This document shows, one piece after another, positions 3,907 through 64,000 of a stretch of DNA of 64,000 nt. A program made the translations under genes and the position numbers. The DNA comes from Chamaelirium japonicum (Eukaryota > Streptophyta > Magnoliopsida > Liliales > Melanthiaceae). The notes beneath the pieces were generated by a model. It saw nothing but the letters and a program-made list of their open reading frames with translations. It did no database searches and was not told the DNA's origin. The DNA is taken from positions 528,501 through 592,500 of the forward strand of contig CANTAL010000145.1 of assembly GCA_947650365.1 (NCBI GenBank). The letters run 5' to 3'. How positions within the stretch are numbered: the first letter of the stretch is position 1; every line of letters begins with the position of its first letter.

Positions 3907-3907
3907 C

Positions 3908-14342: not shown

Positions 14343-14439
14343 TGTGTTGTGAGATGGGAGAAAGAGAGAGCCGTCAAACTTCTCTCTTCTCCCATGGATT
14401 AGGATTTCCCATAGATTGCTTAGGCCCTAAGTAAGCTTA

Positions 14440-14600
14440 CCCTATAAATAATATACGACCCCTTTAGGGTGGGGCACATTTACGGCTCTCTCTTTCTCTC
14501 ATCTTATAACACTTACCCTATAAATAATATATTACCCCTTTAGGGTAGGGCACGTTTGACGGCTCTCTCTTTTTCCCATCTTACAATATATTATCAGCAC
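14440..14600 (+). repeat. Tandem duplication of the promoter half of the LTR-like module
   Basis: The segment from CTTACCCTATAAATAATAT to the CATCTTATAACA end is present twice in a row, so two TATA boxes and two CCCTTTAGGGTGGGG blocks lie about 75-85 bp apart. The same rearrangement is at 20820-20950, 53400-53575 and 58255-58400, and reversed near 34575-34740. Confidence 0.8.
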
Positions 14601-15579
14601 GAACATATCGAGCCCTGCCGACCAGTCGTAAGAAAACAGAGAGAGAAACAAAGACAGAAGAGGAGTTTTGGAATTTAGATTCCTTCTTACTTCACACCTA
14701 TACCCCTGGTCAATGGACTGGAGTAGGACTTCTTCTCTACAGAAGAGAGAGAAGAAGAGAGAAGAGAACAAAGATATAAACATAGACAGAAGAGAGAGAT
14801 ACGACTGGTCGGTTGGGCTCGATAGTAAGAAGTGGCACACCCGAATTGCTTAGGCCCTAATTTCAAATATTAAAAAATACACCATCGAATCTTTCCCATA
14901 GATTAGGGTTTCCCATAGATTACTTAGGCCCTAAGTAAGCTTACACTATAAATAATATACGACCCCTTTAGGGTGGGGCATGTTTAACGGCTCTCTGTTT
15001 CTCCCATCTCACAACACATTATCAGCACGAACATATCGAGCCCAGCGACAAGTCGCAAGAAAATGGAGAGATAAACCAAGATAGAAAAGATAGAAGAAGA
15101 GAGAAGAGAATGGAGAGATAAACGAAGATAGAAGAGGGAAGAAGTTCTACTCTAGTCCATTAGCCATGGGTTTAGTTGTGAAGTAAGAAGAAATTTAAAT
15201 TCAAAAATTCAACTTCTCAATAATATATTTAAATCTCTCCATTCTCTTCTCTCTTCTTCCATAGATTAGGGTTTCCCATAGATTGCTTAGGCACTAAGTA
15301 AGCGTACCCTTTAAATAATATACGACCCCTTTAGAGTGGGGTATATTTCATGGCTCTCTCTTTCTCCCATCTCACAATATGTTATCAGCACGAACATATC
15401 GAGCCCAGCCGACCAGTCATAAGAAACGGAGAGAGAAACGAAGATAGAAGAGAGAGAAGTGGAGAGATGAGAACGGAGAGATAAACGAAAAGAGAAGAGA
15501 GAAGAAGTTATGCTCCAGTCCATTCACCATGGGTATAGATATGAAGTAAGAAGGAATCTAAATTTTAAAACATCACTTT

Positions 15580-15722
15580 TCAATAGTATCTTCTCAAAGT
15601 TATTATGATTATCATAGTAATATTACTATAATTTTTTTAATTAAATTAATTGTTTGATTAAAACAAAGAGAGAAGGGAATTTGCTATGATAATCGTAATA
15701 ACGTTGAGATGATACTATTGAG
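15580..15722. repeat. 143-bp hairpin (MITE-like) copy 1
   Basis: Long inverted arms (left TCAATAGTATCTTCTC... TTATGATTATCATAGTAA; right is its complement ending GATACTATTGA) around an AT-rich loop that includes TTTAATTAAATTAATTG and a GAGAGAAGGGAA stretch. Two near-identical full copies occur at 33472 and 62236. Confidence 0.75.
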
Positions 15723-18700
15723 AAAATTCCAATTCTCAGTAACATAATTAAATCTTTCCGTTCTCTTCTATCTTTTCCTATAGATTAGGTTTTCCCATGG
15801 ATTGCTTAGGCCTTAAGTAAGCTTACCTTATAAATAATATACAATCCCTTTAGGGTGGGGCATGTTTGATGGCTCTCTCTTTCTCCCATTTCATAATACG
15901 TTATCAGCACGAACATGTCGAGCCCAGCCGACCCATCACAAGAAAATAGATAGAAAAAAGAAGACAAAAGTGGGGTTTTGAAATTTAGATTCCTTCTTAC
16001 TTCACACCTATATCCATGGCCAATTGACTAGAGCAGGACTTCTTCTCTCTTCTTTCTTTATTTATCTCTCCATTCTCTTCTCTTTTTATTTATCTCTCCA
16101 TTCTCTTTTCTCTTCTTCTCTCTCTTTTGTATTCGTTAAACTCCACTTCTTTTCTCAATAAACGAAGAGAGAAACGAAGACAGAAGAGAGAAAATAACGG
16201 ATAGATAAACGAAGAGAGAAAAGAAGAAGTCCTACTCTAGTCCATTAGCCATGGGTATAGGTGTGAAGTTTTCTCTTCTATCTTCATTTATCTCTCTATT
16301 CTCTTTTCTCTTCTTTTGTCTTCATTTGTCTCTCTATTTTTCTTATTACTAGTCGACTGGGCTCGACATGTTCATGCTGATAACGTATTATGAGATGGGA
16401 GAAAGTGAGAGCCATCAAATGTGCCCCACCCTAAAGGGGTCGTATATTATTTATAGGGTAAACTTACTTAGGGCCTTAGTAATCTTGAGAAACCCTAATT
16501 CATTGGAGAAGAGAGAACAAAACGGAGAGATTTAATTATATTATTGAGAAGTGGAGTTTTGGAATTTAGATTCCTTTTTACAAAACACCTATACCCATGG
16601 ATAATGGACTGGAGGAGGACTTCTTCTCTCTTCTGTCTTCGTTTATCTCTCCATTCTCTTCTCTCTTCTTCTCTTTACTCACAACACGTTATCAGCATGA
16701 ATATGTCGAGCCAAGCAGACCACCATTTAGAATTTAACTAAATTATTTAAATATATTATTTAAATTATTTATCTCTTTATTCTCTTATCTCTTCTTCTTT
16801 TTCTTCAGCCTTTATTTCTCTCTCCGGTTTCTGGTGACTGGTCGGCTGGGCTCGATATGTTCGTGCTGATAATAAGTTGTGAGAAAAAATAAGAAGAGAG
16901 AAAAGAAGGAAGAATTAACAAAGAAAGAAGAGAGAAGAAGTACTGCTCCAGTCCATTCACCACGGGTATACGTGTAAAGTAAGAAGGAATCTAAATTCCA
17001 AAACTCTACTTTTAAATAATATAATTAAATCTCTCCATTCTCTTCTCTCTTCTCTCGTGGATTAAGGTTTCCTTTAAAATGCTTAGGACCTAAGTAAGCT
17101 TACCCTATAAACAATATACGACCCCTTTAGGGTGGGGTATGTTTAACGGCTCTTTCTTTCTTCCATCTTATAATATGTTATCAGCTCGAACATGTCGTGC
17201 CCAGATGACCAGTTGCAAGAAAAGAAAAAGAGAAACGAAGACAGAATTGGAGTTTTGGAATTTAAATTCCTTCTTACTTCATACCTATACCCGTGGCCAA
17301 TAGCCTAGAGCAGGACTTCTTCACTCTTCTCTTCGTTTATCTCTCCGTTCTCCTTTCTCTTCTTCCCACACTTCTGTCTATGTTTCTTTATCCGTTTATT
17401 AAGAGAAGAAGAGGAGTTTAACGAAGACAAAAGAGCGATAAGAAGTGAGAAGAGAACGGAGAGATAAATAAAAAGAAAAGAGAGAACTTCACACCTATAC
17501 CCGTGGCCAATGGACTGGAGTACAACTTCTTCTCTCTTCTCTCTTTGTTTATCTCTCTATTTTCTTCTCTCTTTTTCTTTCTCTTCTGTCTTTGTTTCTC
17601 TATCTGTTTATATAGAGAAGAAGTGGAGTTTAACGAAGACAGAAGAGAGATAAGAAACGAGAAGAGAACAGAGAGATAAATGAAGAGAGAAGATGTCCTG
17701 CTCCAGTCCATTGGCCAAGGGTATAAGTGTAAAGTAGGAAGGAATCTAAATACCAAAACTCCACTTTTGTCTTCGTTTCTCTTACTGTTTTCTTACGACT
17801 GGTCAGCTGGGCTCGACATATACGTACTGATAACATGTTGTGAGATGGGAAAAAGAGAAAGTCATCAAACATGCCCCACGCTAAAGGGGTCGTATATTAT
17901 TTATAGGGAAAGCTTACTTCGGGCCTAAACAATCTATGGGAAACCCTAATCCATAGACGAAGAGAAAAGAGAACTGAGAGATTTAATTATATTATTGAGA
18001 AGTGGAGTTTTGGAATTTAGATTCCTTCTTACTTCACACATATACCCATGGCGAATGGACTGAAACATGACTTCTTCTTTCTTCTATTTTTATTTGTCTG
18101 TCTATTCTCTTCTCTCTTCTCAGAACATATTATCAACATGAACATGTCAAGCCCAATTGACCAGTCACAAAAAAACGGAGAGAGAAATGATGATAGAAGA
18201 AAGAGAAGATAACAGAAAGATAAACGAAGAGAGAAGTCCTGCTCCAATCCATTGACCACGTGTATAGATTTAAAGTAAGAAGGAATCTAAATTCCAAAAC
18301 TCCACATAAGAGAGATAAGAAGGGAGAAAAGAATGGAGAGATAAATTAAGAGAGAAGAGAGAAGAGAGAAGAAGTCCTACTATAGTCCATTGGCCATGGG
18401 TATAGGTGTGACGTAAGAAGGAATCAAAATTCCTAAACTCTATTTCTATCTTCCTTTCTCTCTCCATTTTCTTGTAACTGGTCGGCTGGGCTTTACATGT
18501 TCGTACTGATAACGTATTATGAGATGGGAGAAAGAGAGAGTCATCAAAAAAGCCCCACCCTAAAAGGGTTGTATATTATTTATAGGGTAAGCTTACTTAG
18601 GGCCTAAGTAATCTATAGAAAATCCTAACCATGGGAGAGATCCAACGGTGAACAGTCATCCTTCTTAATTCACACCTATACCGTGGCCAATATAATGGAG

Positions 18701-20819
18701 CAAGACTTCTTCTCTCTTTTCTCTTCGTTTAGCTCTCCATTCTCTTCTTTCTCTTTCTCCCATTTCACAATACGTTATCAGCACAAACATGTCGTGCCCA
18801 ACCGACCAGTCACATGAAAACGGAAAGAGAAACAAAGACAGCAGAGAGAGAAGAAGAGAGAAAAGAACGAAGAGATAAACGAAGAGAGAAATGATAAGAA
18901 GTTCTGCTCACGTCAATTGGCTACGGGTTTAGGTGTGCAGTAAGAAGGATGGCTATCCACTATCGGATCTCTCCCATGGATTTGGGCTTCCCATAGATTT
19001 CTTTGGCCCTATGTAAGCTTACCCTAAAAATAATATATGACCCTTTTAGGGAGGGGCATGTTTGACGGCTCTCTCTTTCTCGCATGTCATAACACGTTAT
19101 CAACACGAAAATATAGAGCCCAGCCGACCAGTCACAAGAAAACGGAGAGAGAAACGAATATAGAAATGGAGTTTTGGAATTTGGATTCCTTCTTACTTCA
19201 CACCAATACCCGTGGCTAATGGATTTGAGTAGGACTTCTTCTCTCTTCTTAGTTCATTTATCTCTCCGTTCTCTTCTCTCTACTTCACTCTCTTCTATGG
19301 AGTTTCGAAATTTAGATTCATTCTTACTTCACACCTATACCTGTGGCCAATGGACTAAAGCAGGACTTCTTCTCTTTTCTCTTTTCGTTTATTTCTCCGT
19401 TCTCTTCTCTTTTCTTCTCTCACTTCTGTCTTTGTTTCTCTCTCTATTTTCTTATGACTGGTCGGCTGGGCTCGACATATTCGTGCTGATAATATGTTAT
19501 AACAAGTGAGAATTAAACGGAGAGATAAACAAAGAAAGAAGAAGTCCTGCTTTAGTCCATTCGCCACGGGTATAGGTGTGAAGTAAGAAGATATCTAAAT
19601 TCCAAAACTCAACTTCCCAATAATATAATTAAATCTCTTATTTCTCTTCTCTATTCTCTCATGGATTATGGTTTCCTATAAATTACTTAGGCCCTAATTA
19701 AGCTAACCCTATAAATAATATATGACCCCTTTAGGGTAGGGCATGTTTGACGACTCTCTCTTTGTCCCATCTCATAATACGTTATCAGTACGAACATGTC
19801 GAGCCCAGCCGACCAGTCGTAAGAAAACGGAGAGAAAAACAAAGACAGAAGAGAGAGAAGAAGAAAGAAGAGAACAGAGAGATAAACAAAGATAGAAGAG
19901 AGAAGATGTCCTGCTCCAGTCTATTGGCCACGGGTATAGATTTGAAGTAAGAAAGAATTTAAATTCCAAAACTCCACTTCTCAATATTTATACGACCCCT
20001 TTATGGTGTGGCATGTTTAACGGCTCTTTCTTTCTCCCATCGCACAACATGTTATCTATATGAACATGTCGAGCTCAGTCGACCTGTCATAAAAAAATGG
20101 AGAAAGAAATGAAGACAGAAGAGAGAGAAGAATAGAGAAGAGAACAGAGAGATAAACGAAGAGAGAAGAAGTCCTGCTCCAGTACATTTGCCATGGGTAT
20201 AGGTTTGATGTAAAAAGGAATCTGAATTCCAAAACTCCACTTCTTAATAATATAATTAAATATCTCTGTTCTCTTCTCTCTTCTCCTATGGATTAGGATT
20301 TCCCATAGATTGCTTAGGCCCTAAGTAAGCATACCCTATAAATAATACATGACCCCTTTAGGGTAGGGCATGTTTGATGGCTCTATCTCTTTCTCCCATA
20401 TCATAACACGTTATCAGTACGAACATGTCGAGCCTAGCCGACCAGTCGCAAGAAAATGGAGACAGGAACGAAGACAGAAGAGAGAGAAGATAATGAAGAG
20501 ATAAATGAAGAGAGAAAAAGTCATACTCCAGTCCATTGGCCATGGGTATAGGTGTAAAGTAAGATGTAATCTAAATTCCAAAACTCTACTTCTGTCTATG
20601 TTTCTCTCTCCGTTTTCTTACGACTGGTCGGCTGGGCTCGATATGTTCGTGCTGATAACATATCTAGTTTAATTAAGAAGGAATCTAAATTCCAAAACTC
20701 CACTTCTCAATAATAAATTAAATTTCTTTATTCTTTTCTCTCTTCTCCTATGGATTAGGGTTTTCCATAGATTACTTAGGCCCTAAGTAAGCTTATCCAA
20801 TAAATAATATTCGACCCCT

Positions 20820-20950
20820 TTAAGGTAGGGCACATTTGATGGCTCTCTCTTTCTCCCGTCTCAGAACACTTACCCTATAAATAATATACAACCCCTTTAG
20901 GGTAGGGCACGTTTGATGGCTCCCTCTTTCTCCCATCTTATAACACGTTA
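20820..20950 (+). repeat. Doubled LTR-like promoter half, second occurrence
   Basis: ACTTACCCTATAAATAATAT follows directly on a CGTCTCAGAACA end, then a second CCCTTTAGGGTAGGG and a second end (CATCTTATAACA) occur. The arrangement is the same as at 14440-14600. Confidence 0.75.
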
Positions 20951-21422
20951 TCTTTTATTTCTCTCCCCATTTCTCACCCCGTTTTCTTTGTTTATCTGTC
21001 TTTCTCTTATAGTATAAAATAAAATAAATAAGTATTCATAGAAAAGAGATAAAAAATTATTTTAAACTAGAGAGAGCAGGACTTTTTCTCTCTTCTCTCT
21101 TTTTTCTTTGTTTATCTCTTCATTCTCTTCTCTCTTTCTCCCATCTCATATATGTTATCAGCACGAACATATCGAGCCTAGCTGACCAGTCGCAAGAAAA
21201 CGGAGAGAAAAACGAAGACAGAAGTAGAGTTTTTAAATTTAGATTTCTTCTTACTTCAAACTTTTACCCATGGCTAATGGACTGGAGCGGGACTTCTTCT
21301 CTCTTCTATCTTCGTTTATCTCTCCATTCTCTTCTCTCTTCTTCTCTCTCTTCTGTATTCATTTCTCTCTCAGTTTTTTTTACGATTGGTCGGCTGGGCT
21401 CGATATGTTTGTGCTGATAATG

Positions 21423-21590
21423 TGTTGTAAGATGGGAGAAAAAGAGGGTCGTCAAGCATGCCCCATCCTAAAGGTATCGTATATTATTTATAGGGTAAGC
21501 TTACTTAGGGCCTAAGCAATCTACGAGAAACTGTAATCTATGGGAGACGTCCGACGGTGGACAGCCATCCGATCGAACGATCTCACAACA
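21423..21590 (-). repeat. Full-length LTR-like module (168 bp)
   Basis: On the plus strand it begins TGTTGTAAGAT and ends ATCTCACAACA, so the two ends are an 11-bp inverted repeat with one mismatch. Read on the minus strand it holds the telo-box AGGGTTT-type motif (diverged here), CTTAGGCCCTAAG, a TATAAATAATA box and the GGGGCATG block, and is followed by CATTATCAGCAC. Length agrees with five other complete copies within 3 bp. Confidence 0.7.
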
Positions 21591-22135
21591 GTTTTAATGT
21601 TTTATATTTTTTTAAAGAAAAATGTAAAATATTTTTAAAGCAAAAACTTTGAGTGTGCCTCATCTTCTTTCTTTACTTCCTATTATTTAATTAATTTAAT
21701 AATTTAATAAATTTAAAAGTTAAATAAAAAATAATTAAATAAATATTTAATTATCTTATCTCTTCTTACTTCATTTTATTACTATGATAATTAAGTGGAG
21801 TATTGTTACTATAATTTTTTAATTAAAATAATCGTTTAATTAAAATGAAAAGAGAATAGAATTTCCTATGATAATCATAGTAACGTTGAGATGATACTAT
21901 TGAGAAGTGGAGTTTTAGAATTTAGATTCCTTTTTACTTCATACCTATACCCGTGGCGAATGAACTGGAGCAGGACTTCTTCTCTCTTCTCTCTTATTTA
22001 TCTTTGTTTAAATTATTTAATAATTTAAAAAAATTATAAATTAAGTTTTTAGTAAAATAATTTATTTAAATAAACAAATTTTTTGCTTTAAAAATAATTA
22101 ATATTTTTTTAAAAAAAATTTAAAAACATTACAAC
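21591..22135. other. AT-rich linker between divergent LTR-like modules
   Basis: No gene. The two flanking modules point away from one another, and the linker holds AAAATATTTTTAAAGC-like ends, GTGTGCCTCATCTTC and TTAATTAATTTAATAATT runs plus one arm of the hairpin family (ATGATAATCATAGTAACG). The same linker in the same setting is found at 59027-59570. Confidence 0.8.
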
Positions 22136-22303
22136 TGTTATGAGATCGTTCGATCGGATAGCTGTCTACCATCGGATCTCTCCTATGGATTAGGGTTTCC
22201 CATAGATTGCTTAGGCCCTAAGTAAGATTACCCTATAAATAATATACGACCCTTTTAGGGTGGGGCACGTTTGACGGCTCTCTCTTTCTCCCATCTCACA
22301 ATA
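22136..22303 (+). repeat. Full-length LTR-like module (168 bp), best plus-strand copy
   Basis: It starts TGTTATGAGATCG and ends ATCTCACAATA (a CA end changed to TA), followed by CATTATCAGCACGAAC. Inside are CGATCGGAT, a TTAGGGTTT telo-box (22190-22198), CTTAGGCCCTAAG, TATAAATA (22234-22241) and CCTTTTAGGGTGGGG. TG...CA ends, a TATA box and a following conserved tRNA-like segment fit a short LTR of a miniature retroelement. The 11-bp terminal inverted repeat is longer than usual for an LTR, so a MITE origin remains possible. Confidence 0.7.
22190..22241 (+). promoter_or_regulatory. Telo-box plus TATA box in LTR-like module
   Basis: TTAGGGTTT (complement AAACCCTAA) at 22190-22198 and TATAAATA at 22234-22241, 35 bp apart. 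This pairing is kept in most copies of the module. Telo-boxes are known in plants as binding sites of TRB proteins and as promoter elements; activity here is inferred. Confidence 0.55.
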
Positions 22304-24329
22304 CATTATCAGCACGAACATGTCGAGCCCTATAGAATCTAATTAAATAAATATTTAATTGATTACATAACTTCTTCTCTCTTCTCTCTTCGACATGTTC
22401 GTACTGATAACGTATTGTGAGATAGGAGAAAGAGAGAGCCGTCAAACGTGCCCCACCCTAAAGGGGTCGTATATTCTTTAAAAAAAAGAGAAAAGAACGG
22501 AGAGATAAACGAAGAGAGAAGAACTCCTACTTTAATCCATTGGCCACGGGTATAAGTATGAAGTAAGAAGGAAGCTAAATTCCAAAACTCTACTTCTCAA
22601 TATTTATACAACCCATCAGATCTCTACTATCACTTTATTTATTATACTTATTTAATCTCACAACACGTTATCAGCACGAACATATCAAGCCAAGCCGACC
22701 AGTCATAAGAAAACGGAGAGAGAAATGAAAACAAAAGAAAGAGAAGAAGAGAGAAGAGAACGGAGAAATAAACGAAGAAAAAAAAGAGAAGAAGTTCTGC
22801 TCTAGTCCATTGGCCACGATTATAGGTGTGAAGTAAGAAAGAATATAAATTCCAAAACTCCACTTCTGTCTTCGTTTCTTTCTCCATTTTCTTATGACTG
22901 ATCGACTCAGCTCGACATGTTTGTGCTGATAACGTGTTGTGAGATGGGAGAAAGAGAGAGCTATCAAATATACCTCACCCTAAAGGGGTCGTATAAATAT
23001 TAAGAAGTAGAGTTTTGGAATTTATATTCCTTCTTACTTCACACCTATACCCGTGGCCAATAGACTGGAGAGGCCACAGGTATATTATTTATTGGGTAAG
23101 ATTACTTAGGGCCTAAGCAATCTACGATAAACCCTAATCCATGGGACATTACTTAGGGCCAAAGCAGGACTTCTTCTCGCTTCTCTCCTTATTTATCTCA
23201 CTGTTCTTTTCTCTCTTTCTCCCATCTCACAACACGTTATCAGTACGAAAATATCGAGCCCAACTGACCAGTAACAAGAAAACGCAGAGTAAAGAGAAGT
23301 CAAAAGAGAGAGAAGAAGAGAGAAAAGAACAAAAATATTTAATTATATTATTGAGAACTGGAGTTTTGGAATTTAGATTCCTTCTTACTTCACACCTATA
23401 CCCGCGGTGAATGTACTGGAGCAGGACTTCTTCTCTCTTCTCTATTCTTTTGTCTCTGTGTTCTCTTCTCTCTTCTTCTCTATCTTCTATCTTTATTTCT
23501 CTCTTTGTTTTCTTGTGACTAGTCGGCTGGGCTTGATATATTCATGCAGAATGGGAGAGATTATTTAACTAATATTATTTTTAGTCCTGTTCCATATTTA
23601 ATCTCTTTTCTTCTCTCTCTTCTGTAGAGATTTGGAATTTAGATTCCCTTTTACTTCACACATATACCCGTGGCCAAAGGATTATAGCAGGACTTCTTCT
23701 CTCTTTTCTCTTTATTTATCTTTTTTTTATATTCTCTCTTTTTCTCTCTCTTCTATAGAGTTTCAGAATTTAGATTTCTTCTTAGTTTACACCAATACAC
23801 ATGGCCAATGAACTAAAGCAGGACTTCTTTTCTCCTCTTTCTTTATTTATTTATCCGTTCTCTTCTCTCTTCTTCTCTCTCTTCTATTTTCATTTCTCTC
23901 TCCATTTTCTTGTGACTGGTTGGCTGAGCTCGATATGTTCGTGCTGATAACATGTTTTAAGATGGGAGAAAGAAAGAGTCGTCAAACGTGCTCCACCCTA
24001 AAGGGATAATATATTATTTATAGGGTAAGCTTACTCTGGGCCTAAGTAATCTATGGGAAACTTTAATCCAAGGGAGAGATCCGACAGTGGACAGCCATCC
24101 TTCTTACTTCACACCTATACCCGTGGCGAATAGACTGGAGATAGACTTCTTCTCTCTTCTCTCTTCTTCTTTTTCTAATTATCGGATAGCTGTCCACCAT
24201 CGGATCTCTCTTATGGATTAGGGTTTCGCATAGATTGCTTAGGCCCTAAGTAAGAAGAAGTCATGCTCTAGTCCATTGGCCACGAGTATAGGAGTGAAGT
24301 AAGAAGGAATCGAAATTCAAAAATTCCAC

Positions 24330-24719
24330 TTCTCAATAGTATCATCTCAATGTTATTATGATTATCATATTAATGCTACTATAATTTATTAAATTAAATT
24401 AAAATTTTATTTAATTATTAAATAATTTAGTAATTAAGTTTTTAGTAGAATAATTAATTTATTTAATTATTTAATTATCTAATTATTTAATTAAATTTAT
24501 TATTTTATTTATTTATTATTATTTTATTATTAAATAATTAAATTAGGTAATTATTTAATTATTTAAATTATTAAATAAAGAAATAATGATTTAATTATAT
24601 AATTAATTTATTAATTTATTTTATTAGTTATTTCTTTAATTAATATTTTATTTTTAAATAATTAAATAATTAGTCAATTATTTAAACGGAGTGGGAGAAC
24701 GTAGAGATAAATAATAGTG
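24330..24719. other. AT-rich stretch before the gypsy element
   Basis: No gene. It starts with a hairpin-family arm (CTCAATAGTATCATCTC, from about 24333), then runs of ATTTAATTATTTAATTA. The last bases (GAGAACGTAGAGATAAATAA) are GA-rich repeat body, cut off at about 24719 by the gypsy LTR. Confidence 0.75.
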
Positions 24720-25460
24720 CCTATGGGTGCAAATTTTGGCAAAAAGCCCTAGAGACTGCGGGACCCACCAGCCCTGCCTGGGGGGCCCACGGAGACCGCC
24801 GTGGGACCCACCATCCCTGCCTGGGGGCATCCACAGAGACTACCGCGGGACCCACCAGCCCTGCCTGGGGGGTCCACAGAAACTACCGTGGGACCCACCA
24901 GCTCTGCCTGGGGGGTCCACGAAGACCGCCGCGGGACCCACCAGCCCTGCCGGGTCCACAGAGACCGCCGCGGGACCCGCCAGCCCTACCTGGGAAATCC
25001 CCGGATACAAAGGCAAAAACCACCATTTGCCCCGAATTTCCTCCCAGAGTTTTTCTATAAATAGCAGGACCTTTAAATATAAAAAAATCCAGAACCAAAC
25101 TCTAAGAACTGATTTCCAGAAACCAGAACCCAGAGCTCTGACTTCGATATTCCGTTACTTTCAATCTCCTTTTCAAAGAGATCAGTGACACTCGGCCTAT
25201 CGAGGTCACTTCTAGTGGAGAGTTAGTGAATTCGGGTTGCTCCCTATAGCACGGAGACGTAGGCTTCGGCTGAACTCCGAGATCACACCTTGTGTCAATC
25301 TTCTTTCTGTTTGTATATCAAAAATCCCAACTCAAAGTCACCAATACATCAACCTTCGGACCTACCTTCCATTCAGTAGATCGATTAAAGATCTTCGACT
25401 CGACTTCGATTGACTGGTGGCGCGGAGTCTTCGGATCGGCACGAAGATTTTCCCCCCACA
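24720..25460 (+). repeat. 5' LTR of the gypsy element
   Basis: The right end is placed at CCCCCCACA (25460), directly before the PBS-like site. The left end is uncertain and is placed at the switch from repeat-body sequence near 24720. A TATA box (TATAAATAG) lies at 25056-25064. No second LTR is in the window for comparison. Confidence 0.6.
24751..25003 (+). repeat. 43-bp GC-rich minisatellite in the gypsy LTR
   Basis: Six copies of a unit containing GGGACCCACCAGCCCTGCC; GGGACCC starts at 24760, 24803, 24848, 24890, 24933 and 24972. It lies upstream of the TATA box, in the U3 part. A Pro/Gly-rich open frame across it is a by-product. Its GC content contrasts sharply with the surrounding AT-rich DNA. 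Confidence 0.9.
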
Positions 25461-25462
25461 GT

Positions 25463-25480
25463 TAGGCAATGTCTGTGGGA
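25463..25480 (+). promoter_or_regulatory. Degenerate primer-binding site of the gypsy element
   Basis: AGGCAATGTCTGTGGGAT sits just after the LTR end. Tat-lineage elements commonly carry TGGCGCCGTCTGTGGGA here; the right half is intact and the GCGCC core is changed. The family motif is from memory. Confidence 0.6.
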
Positions 25481-25631
25481 TCCGTTCGGAAAGCCAAGTT
25501 CGCTCTATATCAAACATCACATCGGTTGAGCAGATAACTGGTCTAGATAGTCAAACTTCCTGGCCCCTTCGGTTGAGCAAACAACCGCTAAGACACCGGC
25601 AATCTTTTTTGCATCCTTTGCTCTCTAAAAG

Positions 25632-27318
25632 GTGAGGACAAAGCATCAGGATCATTCAAAGGGAAGTAACACACGTCAAGCTCATCCAGAGACTCGTTCG
25701 ATGAGTCAACGGCTCAACTTCGGGCAGCCCCTCGCTGTCCCCGAAATAGGGGTTCGATCAAGGAGCGGAAGATCGGTCGATCGACCGATTGTTCCACCTC
25801 TCCGACAGTCGATAGGGCAAACTGCCCCTGCTCCTACTGAAAACCCACCATCTACCTACCAAATCTCGACGATCGATTTTTAGCTATTGTAATTGGCTAA
25901 GCAAAACGCCACCCTCACAGCTGAAAGGGACGCCCTCATAAAGGCAGCCTCCGAAGTCGGAATTGCTCTCCCCATCCCTTCATTTGATGAGAGAGTTGAT
26001 CTGCCACGGCAATCGATTCACTCTGAACCATGAAGGTCAATGGACACCACCGCCCATAAGAGGATTCATCTCAACCCAACCCCCTCTGCGGCTCCATAGA
26101 AGCAGAGTGTCTGGGATCGTATCGATGACGAGTCCTCTCAATCATCTTCAGGATGCAACTGTATCAGGCAGACACAGTCAAAGCCCAACTTGCGAGGGAG
26201 GCACCAGATAAAAGGAGCACCCTCAAAAGGCAGAACTTCTTCATCCCTCCCACACCAACATAAAGCTAGAATGGATCTTCGTCATCAACTCCATCCCGCA
26301 ACCACTCAAAGGCCTGGACAAGACCTCTCGATCTGTATCCAGGTCGGGGGCATGGTCATAGAGAAGGATACTCTTCTGTTGGACCTCTCCACCAAAGTTT
26401 GTTTCAATCATCCTTTCCGAGGGGATGGAGAACTCCAACTCTCCCCAAGTTCAATTGCCTCAAAAGAGATCCTACCCTCATATTCTAGCACTTAAGCAAG
26501 CTCTAATGCCACACGAAGAAGAGAACAATGTGCTTTGCCGAACCTTCGTCGGAAGCCTCGATAAGCCATCTCTCGATTTGTACCATAACCTTTAGGCTGG
26601 GTCCATCACCCAGTTCGAAGTATTGGCAAACCACTTCGTGCAACACTATCAACTCAACTTAAAGCCTGAGAAGAAGCTTGATTCCCTTTACCGGTTGAGG
26701 ATGGGAGCAGATGAAAGTCTTCACAGTTTCACACGAAGATTTCGCAACGAGCACGCCGCTCTCTCAGGATGGCGTCTGGATAATAAGGCTATCATGTTAG
26801 CCTTCCAAAATGCCCTCCGGTTCGATCTGTATATCTATAATGATTTCATCCACAATCCTCCCCCTTTCCTGGGTTCGAAGTTTGATCAAATTCAGAGGTA
26901 GATCGAAGTCGAAGATGATCAGATCGCCCGAAAGGGACGAGAAACAAAACGACAACCTGTTGAGAGGAAAGCCCCAAAGTATACCGCCAAAGCTCACAAT
27001 GCGGAGGCAGTTGCCCCCCTGCACCCAAGCGGCCGAGAAATGACGGACGTAGATCGCCTCTGAAGAATACTACATTCACGGATTGGACTCTACCAATCGA
27101 GCAGATTCTCGATCAAATTCAATATCAAGACTTCCTCCGAAGGCCGAATCCTTTACAGTCTGATACCATGGTTACAGCTGATAAAATATTCTACTGCAAT
27201 TTTCATCGCAGTCACGGCCCTTCTACCGATCAATGCTACCGGCTGAGGTACCATCTGGAGGATCTGCTATAAGAAGGTCATCTCCAGAAGTTCATCAAAG
27301 GCGGGCAAGATCAACGTC
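25632..27318 (+). pseudogene. gag of Tat-lineage gypsy element, broken
   Basis: Gag forms the capsid of retrotransposon particles. Pieces are seen in more than one frame: a Ser/Arg/Pro-rich start (25632-25883), then AERDALIKAASEVG near 25920, a capsid part (LCRTFVGSLDK, GSITQFEVLANHFVQHY, LDSLYRLRMGADESLHSF, about 26525-26900), and a zinc-knuckle-like FYCNFHRSHGPSTDQCY near 27190-27240. In-frame stops include TAG after YHNL (about 26593), TAG at the end of the capsid segment and TAA after HLEDLL. At least one frameshift lies between 25883 and 26520. Confidence 0.8.
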
Positions 27319-27323
27319 GACCT

Positions 27324-27971
27324 TTGGCGAAAGGAAAAGAAGCTTGCTGGATCCACCAAATACCTACCGATCAATTACCTATCGCTGTGCGTGCTAATAT
27401 CTTCAGCATTCATGGAGCATTGCATAATCAAACACTGACAGGAAAAGAAGTTGATCGTCAAGTGCGACGCATATTCAATGTTCGCTCTGTAGCGAACAAA
27501 GAAGACACCTGGATCGAAAAACCTATCAAAGGCCTAACTTGGCCATCTATCATCTTCAACGACTCTGATCTTCAAGGAGTCCATACTCCACATCGGTACC
27601 CCCTAGTCCTGAAGCTCATCGACGGGAGCACCGTCAACCGCATCCTCATCGGCACCGAAAGCTCTATCGTCATGTTCTCAGACTACTTCAAGCGCCTGAG
27701 ACATAAATATACAAGCCTCTAAGTTGTCCCGACCGTGATCATAGGCTTCAACGGGGAGAAGAGCATAACAATGGGGGAATCAAGATTCACCCTCGACCTC
27801 AGTCGAGAGACTCGAGTCTCCGTAAGAGTCGCCATTGTCGAAGGAACGTCCAACTATAACGTCATCCTGGGGCGGTCTTTCCTCCACCCGATCAATACTA
27901 TATCCTCCTCCTACCACCAACTCCTCAAATTTGCAACAGGAGAGGGTATCGTCTGCATTCGAGGAGATTAA
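27324..27971 (+). pseudogene. Aspartic protease region of gypsy element, catalytic Asp lost
   Basis: Retropepsin-like region that would cut the Gag-Pol polyprotein. Family landmarks are visible: IIFNDSDLQGVHTPH, then KLIDGSTVNRILI followed by GTESS, where the family has an Asp-led DxGSS-type active site; here the Asp codon position is Gly (27651-27653). Downstream IIGFNGEKSITMGE and YNVILGRSFLH match the later part of the fold. One stop (27720-27722) lies between the halves, in the same frame. Confidence 0.8.
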
Positions 27972-28229
27972 CAAACCGGGAAATCTTGCGAAGCGGCATA
28001 TACAAAAATAGATCGCCGAATAAATCTCGTCCCCCCAAAATGACCAAGAGATGAAGCTGGTCCTTCTTCAAGATAGCAACCAAAGGAGATCCCACTATTC
28101 GAACCTCTGCCAATCGAAAGGGAGACCTCTCCCTTAATCGAAGAAATCATTCTAATCAATATCGGTAGTGGAGATCTCCCTTAAGAAACCTTCATCGGTA
28201 TCGGTCTCAGCGACGCAGAAGCGCAAAAT

Positions 28230-29130
28230 ATGGTATCCTTCTTTCAATCCAACATTGACGTCTTCGCTTGGTGTTTCAAAGATATGTCCAGGATCAACCC
28301 GAAGGATGCTTATCACCGGCTCATAATCAAAGAAGGAGTGAAGCTCGTCAAACAAAAACCACGCACAATCCGACCAGAACGACAAGCTACAGTTCATGAG
28401 GAGATTAATAAGCTACTCGCAGCAGGCTTCATTCGTAAAGTAGAGTACCCTACTTGGATCTCCAACATAGTCGCTGTCCCTAAGAAGAATGGCAAAATCA
28501 GGGTCTGCATCGACTTCACCAACCTCAACAGGGCTTGCCCTAAAGACCCATTCCCAATGCCAAGGATAGATAGACTCGTTGACGCCACTGCTGGCCACGA
28601 GCTCCTATCTTTCATGGACGAATACTCTAGGTATATTCAAATCCCGCTACATCCGGACGATCAAGAGAAGACATATTTCATGACAGACCGAGATCTCTAC
28701 TGCTACAACGTACTACCATTCGGCCTCAAAAATGCTAGATCGACCTATCAAAGGCTAGTCACGAAGATGTTCGAATAATAAATCGGCCGCAACGCTGAAG
28801 TCTATGTCGATGATCTACTCACCAAAAGTCCCAATCGGGAGAGCCACTTCTCCGATCTAGCAGAGATGCGTCAAATCCTTTGAAAATACTGCATGAAGCT
28901 CAACCCAGCCAAATGTGCCTTCGGTGTTCAATCGGGTAAATTCCTGGGTCACTTTGTGACCAGGAGAGGCATCGAAGCCAACCTCGACCAAATTCGAGCT
29001 ATCCTCGATATGCCATCACCTACCAATCGGAAGGAAGTTCAATGCCTCACTGAAAGATTAGCTGCCCTTAATCATTCATCTCGAAATATTCTGATAAGTA
29101 CAAACCGCTCTTCGATAAGTTACGAAAGGC
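28230..29130 (+). pseudogene. Reverse transcriptase of gypsy element
   Basis: Landmarks in order: INPKDAYHRL, RTIRPERQATVHEEINKLL, IRKVEYPTWISNIVAVPKKN, RVCIDFTNLNRACPKDPFPM, LLSFMDEYSRY (first catalytic Asp), PFGLKNARSTYQRL, then two adjacent stops (28776-28781), then YVDDLL (28803-28820), KLNPAKCAFGV and GKFLGHFVTRRGIE. The catalytic YVDD pair is intact, but the double stop directly before it and a further TGA after MRQIL end translation. A Ty3/gypsy RT with this wording is typical of Tat elements. Confidence 0.9.
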
Positions 29131-29142
29131 AGATACCTCTGG

Positions 29143-30365
29143 ATGGAGTACAACTTGCGAACAAGCTTTTCAAGATACCAAAAATTATCTCATGCGTACT
29201 CCTATTTTGATAGCTTCGCTCCCAAGGAAGATCTCTGGCTCTATCTTACCATCACTGATCAAGCAATCAGTGCGGTCCTGGTTAGCAGAAAAGAAGGCAT
29301 TGAATATCCGGTCTACTACATCAGTCATACACTTCTCCCGGCAGAGACACGATATTCAAAGATTGAGAAGGTCATACAAGCCTTGCTCACCGCATCACGA
29401 CGTCTTCAACCCTATTGTGTCTCCCATCCGATCACCGTTATCTCAGAGCACCCACTCAAAGACATCCTAGATAAGGCTGGTCGAGCAGGTCGAATGACCA
29501 AATGGGTGATCGAGATGAGTGCTCTCAGAATTCAATTCGAGCCTTGCACTTCGCTCAAAGGGCAAGCTGTAGCTGACTTCCTTGCTGACTTCCCCGAGGA
29601 AGATCCTATTGCATGGAAGGATGACGTCAAAATGCACCTTGATAACGAAGATGAACCTCTGCTCAACTCTGCTCCTACAACCATCAATCATAGTCCCGAG
29701 ACTCCCAATACTTCAACTCAATGGAAGCTTTACACTGACGGAGCTTCAAGTGCAATCGATTCAGGAATTGGGATAGTCTTGATATCCCCCGAGCTCGATC
29801 ACCTCCAAAAGGCTATTCTCCTCGGATTCAACGCTAAAAATAACAAAGCAGAATACGAAGCACTTATCTCTGGATTGGAGATTGCTAGATCCTTGGGGGT
29901 GGACCGTTTCGTTGTTCACAGCGACTCCCAACTTATAATTCGACAGATTAATGGGGAGTATACAGCCCGTGAAGAAAGGATGCAACACTGCTTGGCTTTG
30001 GTGATGCATTATCGACAATGATTCAATAACATCGAATTCCTTCAAATCCCGAGGGTCAAAAATCGAGAAGCTGATGCTCTAGCTAATGCTGCATCAGTAC
30101 TAAGAGATTCACTCGGAGAAAGGTGAATACATATCGATTATCAAGAATCGCCAAAAACCACCATTGAACAGCAGATCGTTGCCACTAATGAATGGTCTGG
30201 GGGTTGGAGACAGCCAATTTTCAATCTTACAATACATGACCTCGGGGATTGGAGACTGTTAATTTTTGACTTCTTCAAACATGGCAGAATGCCAGAAGAT
30301 CTAATTCAAGACAGAAGACTTCAAAGAAAACTTCCATGCTACAACCTCCAAGGAGCGGATCTATA
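29143..30365 (+). pseudogene. RNase H plus archaeal-type RNase H and a stub of integrase
   Basis: The first part (LYLTITDQAISAVLVSRKEG, YYISHTLLPAETRYSKIEK, VISEHPLKDIL) is the normal gypsy RNase H and connection. It is followed by a second RNase H: WKLYTDGASS, NNKAEYEALISGLEIA, VHSDSQLIIRQINGEY and NREADALANAAS, with Asp, Glu, Asp and Asp positions all visible. TGA at 30019-30021 and at about 30123 interrupt it. The final segment (GRMPEDLIQDRRLQRKLPCY) resembles the start of the integrase zinc-binding region and is cut by the repeat at about 30370. Confidence 0.88.
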
Positions 30366-31289
30366 CTTGAGCAAGACTTCTTATCATTTCTCTCTTCATT
30401 TATCTCTTTGTTCTCTTCTCTCTTCTTCTCTCTCTGCTGTCTTTGTTTCTCTTTCCCTTTTTTTATGACTGGTCGGTTGGGCATGACATGTTCGTGCTGA
30501 TAACGTATTGTGAGATGGGAGAAAAAGAAAGAAGAGAATGGAGAGATAAACGAAGAGAGAAGAAGTCTTGCTCCATTCTATTAGCCACGGGTATAGGTGT
30601 GGAGTAAGAAGGATGACAGTCCACCGTCAGATCTCTCCCATGGTTAGTATTTCCTAAAGATTACTTAGGCCCTAAGTAAGCTTACCCTATAATTAATATA
30701 CGACCCTTTTAGGGTGGGGCATGTTTGACGACACCCCCTTTCTCCCATCTCATAATACGTTATCAGTACGAACATGTCGAGCCCAGCCGACCAGTCATAA
30801 GAAAACGGAGAGAGAAAGGAAGATAGAAGTAGAGTTTAGGAATTTAGATTCCTTCTTACGTCACACCTATATCCATGGCTAATGGACTGGAGTAGGACTT
30901 CTTCTCTCTTTTCTCTTTATTTATCTTTCCATTCTCTTCTCTCTTCTTATCTCTCTTATGTGGAGTTTTGGAATTTAGATTCCTTCTTACTTTACAGCTA
31001 TACGTATGGCCAATGGATTGAAGCATGACTTCTTCTCTCTTTGTTTATCTCTCTGTTATCTTCTCTCTCTTCTATCATCATTTCTCTCTCTGTTTTCTTG
31101 TGACTGGTCGGTTGGGCTCGACATGTTCATGTTGATAACGTGTTGTGAGAAGAGAGAAGAGAACGGAGAGACAAATAAAGAGAGAAGAAAGAAGAAGTCA
31201 TGTTCTAGGCCATTCGCCATTGGTATAGGTGTGAAGTAAGAAGGAATCTAAATTCCAAAACTCCACTTCTCAATAATATAATTAAATCT

Positions 31290-35339: not shown

Positions 35340-35687
35340 AAGAAGATATAGTTAAAAAAATAATAATTTTAATAAATAAATAAAATAATAATTTTAATTT
35401 TTTGAATATATAAATAATAAAATATTTTTTAAATAACTTATTTTTTTTAAATAATTAAATTAATATTTATTTATTTTAAAATTTAAATAATAAATAAATT
35501 GTTTAAATAATTTAATATTTAGTTATATAGATAATTAAATATTTATTTAATTATTTAAATATTTAATTTATTAAACTAATTAAATTAATTAAATAATCGA
35601 GAGTAAAAAAGAAAGATGAGGCATACCCGAATTTTATGCTTAAAAAATAATTTATTTTTTTCTTTAAAAAAATTAAAATATTACAAC
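35340..35687. other. AT-rich linker, reverse orientation
   Basis: No gene. Reverse complement of the linkers at 42540, 47985 and 52256: it ends with GATGAGGCATACCCGAATTTT and leads into a plus-strand LTR-like module. Confidence 0.8.
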
Positions 35688-35852
35688 TGTTATAAGATCG
35701 TTCGATCGGATGGTTGTCCACCGTCGGATCTCACATGGATTTGAGTTTCTTTTAGATTGCTTAGGCCATAAGTAAGCTTATCCTATAAATAATATACGAC
35801 TCCTATTGGGTGGGGCACGTTTGACGACTCTCTTTTTCTCTATCACATAATA
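35688..35852 (+). repeat. Full-length LTR-like module (165 bp)
   Basis: Starts TGTTATAAGATCG and ends CACATAATA, followed by CGTTATCAACACGAAT. Telo-box (diverged), CTTAGGCCATAAG and TATAAATAATA are in the usual order. Confidence 0.7.
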
Positions 35853-52087: not shown

Positions 52088-52255
52088 TGTTGTGTGATGA
52101 GAGAAAGAGAAAGCCATCAAACATGCTCCACCTAAAAGGGGTAATATATTATTTATAGGGTAAGCTTACTTAGAGCCTAAGCAATCTATAGGAAATCCTA
52201 ATCCATGGGAAAGATCCGACGGTGGACAGCCATCCGATTGAACGATCTCAAAACA
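52088..52255 (-). repeat. Full-length LTR-like module (168 bp)
   Basis: Plus strand starts TGTTGTGTGATG and ends ATCTCAAAACA. Read on the minus strand the TATA box and CTTAGGCTCTAAG follow the usual order. It is followed outward by the AT-rich linker at 52256. Confidence 0.7.
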
Positions 52256-58700: not shown

Positions 58701-58859
58701 ACTTCACACCTATACCCATGGCCAATGGACTGGAGCGGGACTTCTTCTCTCTTCTATCTTCGTTTATCTCTCTGTTCTCTTCACTCTCTTCTGTCTTTGT
58801 TTCTCTCTCTGTTTTTTTACGACTGGTCGGTTGGGCTCGACATATTCGTGCTGATAACG

Positions 58860-59026
58860 TGTTGTAAGATGGGAGAAAAAAAGGGTCGTTAAGCGTGCCC
58901 CACTCTAAAGGTATCATATATTATTTATAGGGTAAGCTTACTTAGGGCCTAAGCAATCTACGAGAAACCCTAACCATGGGAGAGATCCGACGGTGGACAG
59001 TCATCCGATCGAACGATCTCAAAATA
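58860..59026 (-). repeat. Full-length LTR-like module (167 bp)
   Basis: Plus strand starts TGTTGTAAGAT and ends GATCTCAAAATA. It corresponds to the module at 21423-21590 in duplication D1. Confidence 0.7.
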
Positions 59027-59570: not shown

Positions 59571-59736
59571 TGTTATGAGATCGTTCGATCAGATGACTGC
59601 CCACTGTCGGATCTCTCCTATGGATTAGGGTTTCCCATAGATTGCTTAGGCCCTAAGTAAGCTTACCCTATAAATAATATACGACCCCTTTAGGGTAGGG
59701 CATTATTGACGACTTTATTTCTCTCATCTCAAAATA
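59571..59736 (+). repeat. Full-length LTR-like module (166 bp)
   Basis: Starts TGTTATGAGATCG, ends CATCTCAAAATA, followed by CATTATCAGTATAAAT. Telo-box TTAGGGTTT, CTTAGGCCCTAAG and TATAAATAATA are intact. Partner of 22136-22303. Confidence 0.7.
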
Positions 59737-60109
59737 CATTATCAGTATAAATATATCAAGCTCCTTGGAATCTAATTAAATAAATAAGTAATTGATTACA
59801 GAACTTCTTCTGTCTTTTCTCTTTGATATATTCGTACTGATAACGTGTTGTGAGATGGGAGAAAGAGAGAGCCGTCAAACGTGCCCCACCCTAAAGGGGT
59901 CGTATATTCTTTAAAGAAGAGAGAATAGAATGGAGAAATAAACAAAGAGAGAAGAAAGAAGAACTCTTGCTCCAATCCATTGTCCACGGGTATATGTATG
60001 AAGTAAGTAGAAAGCTAAATTCTAAAACTCCACTTCCTAAAGGCGTCGTATATTATTTCTAGGGTCGTATATTATTTCTCTCTTATCTCTTTATTTATAT
60101 CTCCGTTCT

Positions 60110-63100
60110 CTTCTCTCTCATTCTCTCTCTTCGTCTATGGATTAGGGTTTCCCATATATTGCTTAGGCCCTAAGTAAGCTTTCTCTATAAATAATGTATG
60201 ACCCCTTTAGGGTGGGGCATGTTTGACGGCTCTCTATTTCTCTCATCTCACAATATGTTGTCAGCACGAATATATCGAGCCCAGCCGACCAATCGCAAGA
60301 AAACAGTAAGAGAAACGAAGACAGAGTGGAGTTTTGGTATTTAGATTCCTTCTTACTTCACACTTATACCCATGACCAATGGACTGGAGCAGGATATCTT
60401 CTCTTTTCTCTCTTTATTTATCTCTCTGTTCTCTTCTCGCTTCTTATCTCTCTTCTATCTTCCTTAAACTCCACTTTTTCTCTATATAAACGGATAGAGA
60501 AACGAAGATATAAGAGAAAAAAAAAGAGAGAAGAAAATAGAGAGATAAATGAAGAGAGAAGAAGTCTTGCTACAGTCCATTGGTCACGGGTATAGGTGTG
60601 TAGTTCTCTCTTTTCTCTTTATTTATCTCTCCGTTCTCTTCTCGCTTCTTATCTCTCTTCTGTCTTCGTTAAACTCCTCTTCTTCTCTCAATAAACAAAT
60701 AAAGAAATATAGACAGAAGTGAGAGAAGAAGAGAAAAGAGAAATGAGAGATAAACGAAGAGAGAAGAGTGAAGAAGTCCTACTCTAGTCTATTGGGCACG
60801 GGTATAGGTGTGAAGTAAGAAGGAATTTAAATTCCAAAACTCCACTTCTGTCTTTGTTTCTTTTTCTGTTTTCTTGCGACTGGTCAGCTGGGCTCAACAT
60901 GTTCGTATTGATAAAGTGTTATGAGATGGGAGAAAGGAAAAGCCATCAAACGTGCCTCACCCTAAAGGGGTCGTATATTATTTATAGGGTAAGCTTACTT
61001 AGGTCCTAAGCAATCTATGAGAAACTTTAATCCATAGGAGAAGAGAAAAGAGAATAGAGAGATTTAATTATATTATTTAGAAATGGTGTTTTGGAATTTA
61101 GATTCCTTCTTACTTCACACCTATACCCGTGGCGAATGGACTGGAGTAGTACTTCATCTCTCTTCTTTTTTCGTTTATCTTTCCCTTCTTATTCTCTTTT
61201 TTTTTTTCTTATAACTCGTTATCAGCATGAACATATCGAGCCCAACCGATCAGTCACAAGAAACTAGAGAGAGAAACAAAGACAGAAGAGTGAAGAGAAT
61301 AGAGAGATAAATAATTTAAATAATTTAGTTAAATTCTAAATAGTAGTCAGCTGGGCTCGATATGTTTATGCTGATAACTGTTGTGAGTAAGGAGAAGAAG
61401 ATAGAAGAGAATGGAGAGATAAACGAAGAAAGAAGAGAGAAGAAGTCCTGTTCCAGTCCATTATCCATGGGTATAGTTGTTAAGTAAGAAGGAATCTAAA
61501 TTTCAAAACTCCACTTCTCAATAATATAGTTAAATCTCTCCGTTCTCTTCTCTTCTCTCCCATAGAGTTGGGTTTCTTATTTGACGGCTCTTTCTTTCTT
61601 CCATCTCATAATATGTTATCAGCACGAACATGTCGAGCCCAGTCGACCAGTCGTAAGAAAAACAGAGAGAAAAACAAAGACAAAAGAAGAGAGAAGAGAA
61701 CGGAGAGCTAAACAAAGATAGAAGAGAGAACTTCACCCCTATACCCATGGCCAATAGACTAAAGCATGACTTCTTCTCTCTTCTTTCTTCGTTTATCTCT
61801 CCGTTCTCTTCTGTCTTCATTTCTTTCTCCGTTTATTAAGAAAAGAAGTTAAGTTTAATGAAGACAGAAGAGAAAGAAGAAGAGAATGGAGAGATAAATA
61901 AAGAGAAAAGAGAGAAGTCCTGCTCTAGTCAATTGGCCATGGGTATAGGTGTGAAGTAAGAAGGAATCTAAATTCCAAAACTCTATTTTTGTCTTTATTT
62001 TTCTATCCATTTTCTTGTGATGGGTCACCTGGGCTCGACATGTTCGTGCTGAAAATATATTGTGAGATGAGAAAAAGAGAGAGAGCCGTCAAACGTGCCC
62101 CACCCTAAAGGGGTCGTATATTATTTATGAGGTAATCTTACTTAGGGCCTAAGTAATCCATGGAAAAACCTAATCCATGGGAGAAGATAGAAAAGAATGG
62201 AGAGATTTAATTATTTTATTGAGAAGTGGAGTTTTCTCAATAGTATCATCTCAACGTTATTACGATTATCATAGTAAATTCTCTTCTCTCTTTGTTTTAA
62301 TAAAATAATTAATTTAATTAAAAAAATTATAGTAACATTACTATGATAATCATAATAACGTTGAGAATATACTATTGAGAAGTGGAGTTTTGAAATTTAG
62401 ATTCCTTTTTACTTCATACCTATACCCATGGTGAATGGACTAGAGCGTGACTTATTCTCTCTTCTCTTTTCGTTTATCTCTCCGTTCTCTTCTCTTATCT
62501 TCTATTTTTGTTTCTCTCTCCATTTTCTTATGACTGGTCGGTTAGGCTAGACATGTTCGTGCTGATAACGTGTTGTGAGTTGGGAGAAAGTTAGAGCCAT
62601 CAAACATGCCCTACTCTAAAGTGGTCGTTTATTATTTATAGGGTAAGCTTACTTAGTGCCAAAGCAATCTATAGTAAACCCTAATCCATAGGAGAAGATA
62701 GAAGAGAACGGAGAGATTTAATTATATTATTGAGAAGTGGAGTTTTAGAATTTAGATTCTTTCTTACTTCACATATATACCCAGGGCCAATGGACTAGAA
62801 CAGGACTTCTTCTCTCTTCGTTTATCTCTCCATTCTCTTCTCTCTTTTTCTCTCTCTTATGTCTGTTTCTCTCTCCGTTTTCTTACGACTGGTCACTGGG
62901 CTCGACATGTTCGTGCTAATAACATGTTATGAGATAGGAGAAAGAGAGAGCCATTAAACATGCCCCACCATAAAGGGGTTATATATTATTTATAGGGTAA
63001 GCTTACTTAGGGCCTAAGTAATCTATGGAAAACCCTAATCTATGGGAGAGATTTGATGGTGTATCTCTTAATATTTGAACTTAGGGCCAAAGCAATTCGG

Positions 63101-64000
63101 GTGTGCCACTTCTTACTATTGAGCCCAGCTGACCTGTCGTATCTCTCTCTTCTGTCTTTGTTTATTTCTTCATTCTCTTCTCTATTCTTCTCTCTCTTCT
63201 ATGGAGTTTTAGAATTTAGATTCCTTTTTACTTCACACCTTTACCCATGGTGAATGGATTGGAGAAGGACTTCTTTTCTCTTCTCTCTTCAAAGAGATGA
63301 GAGAGAAGAAGAAAACAAACAAAGAGATAAATAAAGAGAGAAGAAAGAAGAAGTCATGCTCCAGTCCATTAACCCTGGGTATAGGTGTGAAGTAAGAAGG
63401 AATCTAAATTGCAAAACTTCTTTTTTGTCTTCGTTTCTCTCTCTGTTTTCTTACGACTGGTCGGCTGGGCTCGATATGTTCGTGCTGATAATATATTATG
63501 AGATGGGAGAAAGAGAGAGCCGTAAACGTGCTCTACTCTAAAGGGGTCGTATATTATTTATAGTGTAAGCATACTTAGGGCCTAAGCAATCTATGGAAAA
63601 CCCTAATCCATGGGAGAAAAGAGAAGAAAACGGAGAAATTTAATTATATTATACGACCCCTTTAGGGTGAAGCAAGTTTGATGACTCTCTCTTTCTCCCA
63701 TCTCACAACACGTTAATTAGTTAATTTAATTATTAAATTAATAAATTATTTAAATTATCTAATAATTAAATAAATAATTAATTTAGTTAAAAAAATTATA
63801 GTAACATTACTAAGATAATCATAATAATGTTGAGATGATACTATTGAGAAGTGAAGTTTTGGAATTTAGATTCCTTCTAATTTCACACCTATAACTATGG
63901 CAATAATCAATTATATATAATTAAATATTTATAAGGTAAGCTTACTAGTTAAGAGAATTGATTTAATAATTATTTAAATAAATAATTAATATGACCCCTT
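60110..64000 (+). repeat. Segmental duplication D2, copy 2 (cut by window end)
   Basis: Colinear with 31290-35096. The last bases (AATTAATATGACCCCTT) match the sequence at about 35079-35096, so the duplication very probably goes on beyond the window. Confidence 0.8.
62236..62379. repeat. 144-bp hairpin (MITE-like) copy 3, with flanking direct repeat
   Basis: Inverted arms as in copies 1 and 2. The 17-bp sequence TTGAGAAGTGGAGTTTT is found perfectly at 62219-62235 and at 62375-62391, overlapping the right arm, so a target duplication of about 9-12 bp is possible. Confidence 0.75.

Follow-up and report, generated by a model that had tools for sequence, protein, structure and literature searches.

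Background

Long terminal repeat (LTR) retroelements are known to give rise to satellite DNA, usually with the parent element persisting or with a simple monomer. Here we describe an array in a 64,000-nucleotide stretch of Chamaelirium japonicum DNA (bases 528,501-592,500 of the 804,446-bp contig C157, the genome comprising 1.52 Gb in 3,253 contigs; hereafter, the window), which is probably a complex satellite seeded by the 5' end of a Ty1/copia LTR retrotransposon of the Bianca type, either small or truncated, and which would have spread through copying of DNA. In this case the primer site allows the parent to be named, copies of the founding junction can be counted across the genome, and the spread seems to have involved DNA only.

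Several described systems resemble this array in part. Cassandra, a terminal-repeat retrotransposon in miniature (TRIM), is likewise a non-coding LTR retroelement found in arrays, but according to the available part of its report the LTRs are shared in one order, with a full-length Met-tRNA-type primer site and 5S promoters (PMC7215508), whereas our array shows orientation switches, higher-order units and megabase clusters. The maize TRIM Wukong also forms tandem elements, with up to seven LTRs; it has 215 members with LTRs usually in one orientation, and no satellite-scale blocks are reported in the part of the source available (PMC4528315). The Ogre-derived satellites of Lathyrus are long arrays that likewise go back to a portion of an LTR retrotransposon; in the accessible portions of the study and of a review, their source is short tandem repeats located after the coding part, in elements that persist today (PMC7004042; PMC12628747). 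In contrast, the seed here is an LTR/primer-site junction, and no intact element was found. A kangaroo endogenous retrovirus, in a paper cited in PMC11899658, is also said to have become a megasatellite, by its title one that keeps the provirus structure in a simple pattern; compared with that title, our array is scrambled and consists mostly of AT-rich and purine-rich spacer.

The primer site itself is closest to that of the Ty1/copia lineage Bianca, which is complementary to a half-molecule of tRNA-Ile with an edited anticodon base, a primer that no other lineage uses in the accessible part of the survey (PMC6317226). Unlike Bianca, the array has been amplified as a satellite, and we saw no polyprotein, second LTR or independent insertions, although an autonomous relative was not searched for. 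Among the papers listed by our literature searches, no title or abstract opening describes a plant satellite of such build, nor does any title or abstract among those listed on Bianca with TRIMs or tandem arrays.

One repeat family fills the array

The array occupies two stretches of the window, 14343-24719 and 30371-64000, the second running on past the window end; in both, LTR, leader, GA-rich body, tail and AT-rich modules occur in both orientations, so that neither stretch is assigned a strand. Three single module copies taken from the window, all on the forward strand, were used as seeds for nhmmer: an LTR core with a tail-type fusion on its 5' side (31317-31434), a leader with the primer site (31434-31490) and a tail module (31195-31283). 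They yielded 89 LTR, 74 leader and 134 tail matches, all within the two stretches, exactly where a preliminary description of the sequence had placed the array. Profiles made from these matches found 90 LTR, 105 leader and 139 tail copies, which cover 23,419 of the 44,007 array bases (53.2%) and no base in the rest of the window.

Self-comparison shows nearly the whole array to be repetitive. When the window was compared with itself and its flanks (264 kb; 448,501-712,500 of the contig), 98.9% of the array bases had at least 10 similar places and 95.6% at least 20. At least five similar places were found for only 10.2% of the bases in the CACTA part (8500-14300) and 4.1% of those in the gypsy-like part (24730-30360) that interrupt the array. 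Since the array resembles at least 10 places and the interrupting parts do not, we conclude that one family covers the block, the preliminary description having asked for over 80% as support.

The block had been put at about 44 kb; it is real, but that size is far too small. Modules were present in 20 of 20 flanking 10-kb pieces, on both sides, giving 379 LTR, 441 leader and 619 tail matches in the 264 kb. Further out on the contig, four of 11 sampled points carried modules (300,001; 350,001; 400,001; 760,001), six had none and one read only N, so that sampled presence spans 300 to 762 kb of the 804-kb contig. Six pieces were sampled off this contig; half of them read N, and no module was present in the rest. 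We give practically no credence to the arrangement being an assembly artefact. The contig is indeed unplaced, but there is no N in the window or in 200 kb of its flanks, the copies are 5-14% apart, enough for long reads to distinguish them, and the family also occurs in chromosome-size contigs, in both orientations.

The absence of any gene or protein domain from the array, suggested earlier, agrees with our searches: its two open reading frames of at least 120 amino acids had no Pfam match. Rfam, at gathering score, found no family in the window, and ARAGORN found no tRNA there, which left a retrozyme or a tRNA-derived body, both considered as candidates, without support.

LTR and primer site

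The full LTR runs from TGTTRTGAG to CTCAYAACA over 165-168 bp, with matching 9-bp inverted ends and a TATA box. A strict regular expression recovered three full-length copies in the window, giving substance to the LTR-like segment of 167 bp noted before: 22136-22303 (forward, 168 bp, TGTTATGAG...CTCACAATA, followed by the primer-site leader), 35688-35852 (forward, 165 bp, TATA box present, the primer site CGTTATCAACACGA directly behind it) and 52088-52255 (reverse, 168 bp). The AT-rich linker at 35345-35687 (forward) ends in ...ATTACAAC, the constant 5' flank of the full-length LTRs. The tail module had been entertained as the start of the LTR, and was dropped once the TGTT...AACA ends appeared.

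Directly behind the LTR stands CGTTATCAGCACGA, 13 of whose 14 letters are complementary to the anticodon arm of tRNA-Ile(AAU), and what had been called a leader resembling a primer binding site can therefore be read as a half-tRNA-Ile primer site. The single mismatch falls on the first anticodon base, which editing turns into inosine in this tRNA, allowing it to pair with C. The corresponding tRNA-Ile string was found nine times in the genome, and ARAGORN predicted a tRNA-Ile(AAT) at all six of the loci that were fetched. Within the window, 13 primer sites are exact to 14 letters and 37 have one change. The leader gives way either to the purine-rich body with the tail module or to AT-rich linkers. 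In a check for a polypurine tract, the 10 nucleotides before TGTT (ACATTACAAC) contained five purines; this segment may be the flank of the founder, and no 3' LTR was identified.

Could the LTR and primer site be chance look-alikes, within an ordinary complex satellite or a tRNA-derived repeat similar to a short interspersed nuclear element? The LTR-like part never stands alone, the purine-rich body and AT linkers resemble satellite sequence, and the leader resembles tRNA-Ile. However, the tRNA match is confined to the anticodon arm, lies directly at the AACA end, and has as its sole mismatch the edited anticodon base; the 9-bp inverted end pair and the TATA box are at the expected places, and the empty Rfam and ARAGORN searches leave no tRNA-like or known RNA body. 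We therefore hold this explanation to be very unlikely. A satellite derived from an LTR retrotransposon of the Bianca type is the most likely reading.

LTR flanks and recurrent junctions

Movement as a retrotransposon would be expected to leave LTR ends beside many different sequences, and this was not seen. Genome-wide, the exact LTR 3' end followed by the primer site was found at 6,258 sites and the same end followed by five foreign letters at two, that is, 2 of 6,260; a longer LTR 3' end with foreign letters was found nowhere. The LTR 5' end with the common flank was found at 993 sites, and with five foreign letters at none. Each foreign-flank pattern catches about 21-24% of random flanks, and only exact LTR ends were counted. 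The two foreign-flanked sites (C75:821238 and C75:870338, flank TAAAT) are 49 kb apart and probably duplicates of one event. Nearly all of the 35 LTR 5' ends that were fetched, from C1, C3, C4 and C157, have the same AT-rich flank, and 287 of 338 LTR 3' contexts in the 264 kb run straight into the primer site. Given constant flanks on both sides, the copies seem to trace to one junction, multiplied as DNA.

The contexts of the modules in the 264 kb fall into few classes. Average linkage (single linkage merged all contexts) grouped 189 LTR 5' contexts into classes of 117, 36, 15, 7, 6 and 5 plus three singles, and 410 leader 3' contexts into classes of 257, 92, 37, 11, 8 and 3 plus two singles. 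Each class goes back to a single old rearrangement that was copied over and over. The largest LTR class comprises copies that have lost the 5' end through one recurrent fusion (117 of 189). The second class of leaders (92 of 410) is the commonest inversion, in which a forward leader is fused to a reverse tail, as at 31435-31576 (forward), with a microhomology, AGAAG, common to both parents. Purine and pyrimidine tracts make up 25.6% of the array, as against 2.5% and 0% of the neighbouring transposons, and the fusions that we looked at fall in or beside such tracts. A scrambled patch of about 2 kb on C3 (L040) shows truncated LTR pieces joined head to head.

These observations bear on the origin from a TRIM that had been suggested. 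Under that explanation, a living or recent TRIM family would have inserted as whole elements, chained by LTR-LTR recombination or concatenated in reverse transcription, as proposed for Cassandra and Wukong. The well-formed LTR with its primer site and the lack of coding sequence in the array agree with it, tandem TRIMs are documented in the available parts of two reports (PMC7215508, PMC4528315), and constant flanks would also be expected within a chain. Set against this are the near absence of foreign DNA at both LTR ends and the 117 LTRs without a 5' end; moreover, orientation switches at 97 of 328 adjacent module pairs, whereas chains made by LTR recombination keep one orientation, and the duplicated blocks include other transposons. 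An LTR-internal-LTR unit with target duplications was not seen by eye in three small patches among five fetched loci, with no formal search for target duplications. We consider such a family unlikely. Of the suggested TRIM origin, the LTR with a primer site stands, but an element spreading as a TRIM and chaining via LTR recombination does not, and we do not file the array as a TRIM, independent paired-LTR insertions having been tested for and not found. The flank tests exclude dispersal by retrotransposition, and a short tandem TRIM may still have been the seed of the satellite.

Higher-order blocks

Above the modules, the 264 kb contain 43 pairs of blocks that are 4 kb or longer (19 in direct and 24 in inverted orientation), with 85.9-95.2% identity, leaving out matches centred in four intervals of a 181-bp satellite. 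With the switches between modules, this substantiates the both orientations and several scales of duplication reported before. The longest pair involves a 17.8-kb block at 14345-32086 (forward), whose inverted copy lies 40.6-58.3 kb left of the window start with 93.9% identity. The inverted copy includes the gypsy-like stretch, which was thus present before that duplication.

Similar arrangements were found on other contigs. On C4 the unit is 18,859 bp long, neighbouring units are 99.2% identical over 3,142 bp, and the exact sites at 23.67-23.97 Mb are all forward among the matches listed. Near 112.1 Mb of C2, sites recur every 12.6 kb. On C1, a set of five sites (offsets 0, 249, about 2,190, 4,200 and 10,300) recurs, the copies at 116.48, 116.51 and 116.54 Mb being forward and those at 116.64 and 116.67 Mb inverted. 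The units of C4 and C157 have in common only blocks of at most 861 bp, about 80-84% identical, from which we infer that the blocks arose and were homogenised independently; most LTRs in the C4 unit have their nearest relatives among the other LTRs of that unit or in the C3 copy. The family therefore forms the long homogenised arrays of a satellite, as in the C4 unit and throughout the 264 kb of C157, without the single head-to-tail orientation, 24 of the 43 block pairs on C157 being inverted.

The recurrence of 4-18 kb blocks in both orientations, and of similar sites on many contigs, would also fit a large mobile element as the spreading unit, such as a non-autonomous transposon of 4-19 kb, Helitron-like or otherwise, with the array inside it. 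Yet block ends vary from pair to pair, and small patches are scrambled without shared ends (Helitron ends themselves were not searched for). We regard this explanation as highly improbable.

Abundance and distribution in the genome

A 37-bp LTR core, allowing up to three mismatches, had 30,519 matches genome-wide, and its reversed control had none. The core occurs 37 times in the 44 kb of window array, 142 times in the 264 kb around the window and five times per 20 kb in the C4 unit. Extrapolating from the densities at these three places, the family would amount to roughly 36, 57 or 120 Mb, or 2.4-8% of the genome.

The clustered loci predicted for the genome were found, as large clusters on several chromosomes. 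Among the matches listed, these lie at 116.3-118.0 Mb of 137.3 on C1, at 0.09-1.5 and 108.2-112.2 Mb of 122.5 on C2, at 0.1-0.5 and 92.5-99.5 Mb of 100.1 on C3, and at 0.18-0.22 and 23.7-24.0 Mb of 94.9 on C4. For a rarer variant all 29 sites are known: C2 (6), C3 (4), C4 (2), C7 (4), C10 (3), C12, C14 and smaller contigs (8). On C4, 0.65 and 1.1 Mb separate its sites from the contig end; on C3 they are found at 0.67 Mb and at distances of 3-6 Mb from the end, and on C2 at 0.66 and 1.1 Mb and at distances of 11-13 Mb from the end. Some blocks are near chromosome ends and others are interstitial; the term subtelomeric fits only part of them.

Sequence decay

Substitution rates were taken from near-full copies (190 LTR, 393 leader, 516 tail), in which most changes are of the C-to-T type. 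Transition rates in the LTR are 0.293 at CG, 0.28 at CHG (few cells), 0.11 at CHH and 0.01 at A/T sites; in the tail, they are 0.20 at CHG, 0.10 at CHH and 0.016 at A/T sites. Judged from these substitutions, the excess would fit long methylation in all contexts.

Probable origin and spread of the satellite

Taken together, these results suggest the following history. In the seed, an LTR and its leader with the half-tRNA-Ile primer site would have been joined to purine-rich sequence, to the tail and to a flank rich in A and T; thereafter, copies would have spread as DNA and not via RNA. Breaks or stalled replication at the long purine and pyrimidine tracts may have produced small inversions, joined at short homologies, while unequal exchange or break-induced replication may have duplicated blocks of 4-19 kb, head to tail or inverted, and such blocks may have moved between chromosomes. 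The blocks would now be heterochromatin under DNA methylation, with many silent LTR promoters. The array has no coding function, and any role for the cell, if there is one, would be as bulk heterochromatin.

Several points weigh against this history. With five purines in 10 letters, the sequence preceding the LTR does not look purine-rich, and no second LTR end was found, so that the element would be incomplete; neither the tail module nor the AT-rich part has a known source. With exact ends and about a fifth to a quarter of random flanks caught, the flank tests could miss old decayed insertions, and both flanks would stay constant with a tandem LTR-internal-LTR founder as well. In the leader, CG is not ahead (CG 0.14, CHG 0.18, CHH 0.16; A/T 0.034). 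Finally, the C4 and C157 units share only short blocks, so that any route between chromosomes would be conjectural.

A more far-reaching scenario is speculative, and we would not favour it at present. In it, a single Bianca-type LTR/primer-site junction would have ceased to act as a retrotransposon and turned into one of the chief heterochromatin sequences (2-8% of the genome) through repeated template switching at its purine tracts, giving arrays of nested palindromes that spread as DNA between chromosome ends, and double-stranded RNA from opposed LTR promoters would keep the blocks methylated. If true, the repeat would guide its own silencing through double-stranded RNA from thousands of such promoters. 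For the satellite itself, one sequence family may show early scrambling, growth of higher-order units and interchromosomal exchange, and it carries a warning that a good LTR with a primer site is no proof of spread by retrotransposition.

Interrupting elements and other repeats

Two sequences that are not members of the family interrupt the array. A tnp2-type CACTA sequence occupies 1-14342 (reverse; Transposase_21, DUF4216 and Transpos_assoc domains; one terminal TTCTTGTAGTG), and the left edge of the array, at 14342/14343, is the end of this element, sited in an LTR 3' end. This CACTA type and the Bianca primer type both point to a plant host. Arrays of the 181-bp satellite, with units about 93% alike, lie in opposite orientations around CACTA-type coding sequence at 1-3607 and 5939-8298 and also about 93,765-98,054 bp to the right of where the window starts; a further array is situated 34 kb beyond its right end. 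The second sequence is a gypsy-like retrotransposon fragment at 24720-30370 (forward), with reverse transcriptase and RNase H domains, inside which a GC-rich 43-bp minisatellite was observed at 24758-24994.

Within the second array stretch, a palindromic AT-rich insert of 145 bp (33472-33616) has TCTCAATAGTATC-type ends and resembles a miniature inverted-repeat transposable element; a strict pattern found one copy, and similar sequence was recognised by eye near 15590-15720. On C3, the left side of the scrambled patch (L040:1-460) is a degenerate GATTAATTGCCGATTTTTTGCC-type repeat. A TTCATTCGTACGATCC-type satellite (L041:1-830 and L033) adjoins a small array patch on C3 and fills the start of a piece of C300.

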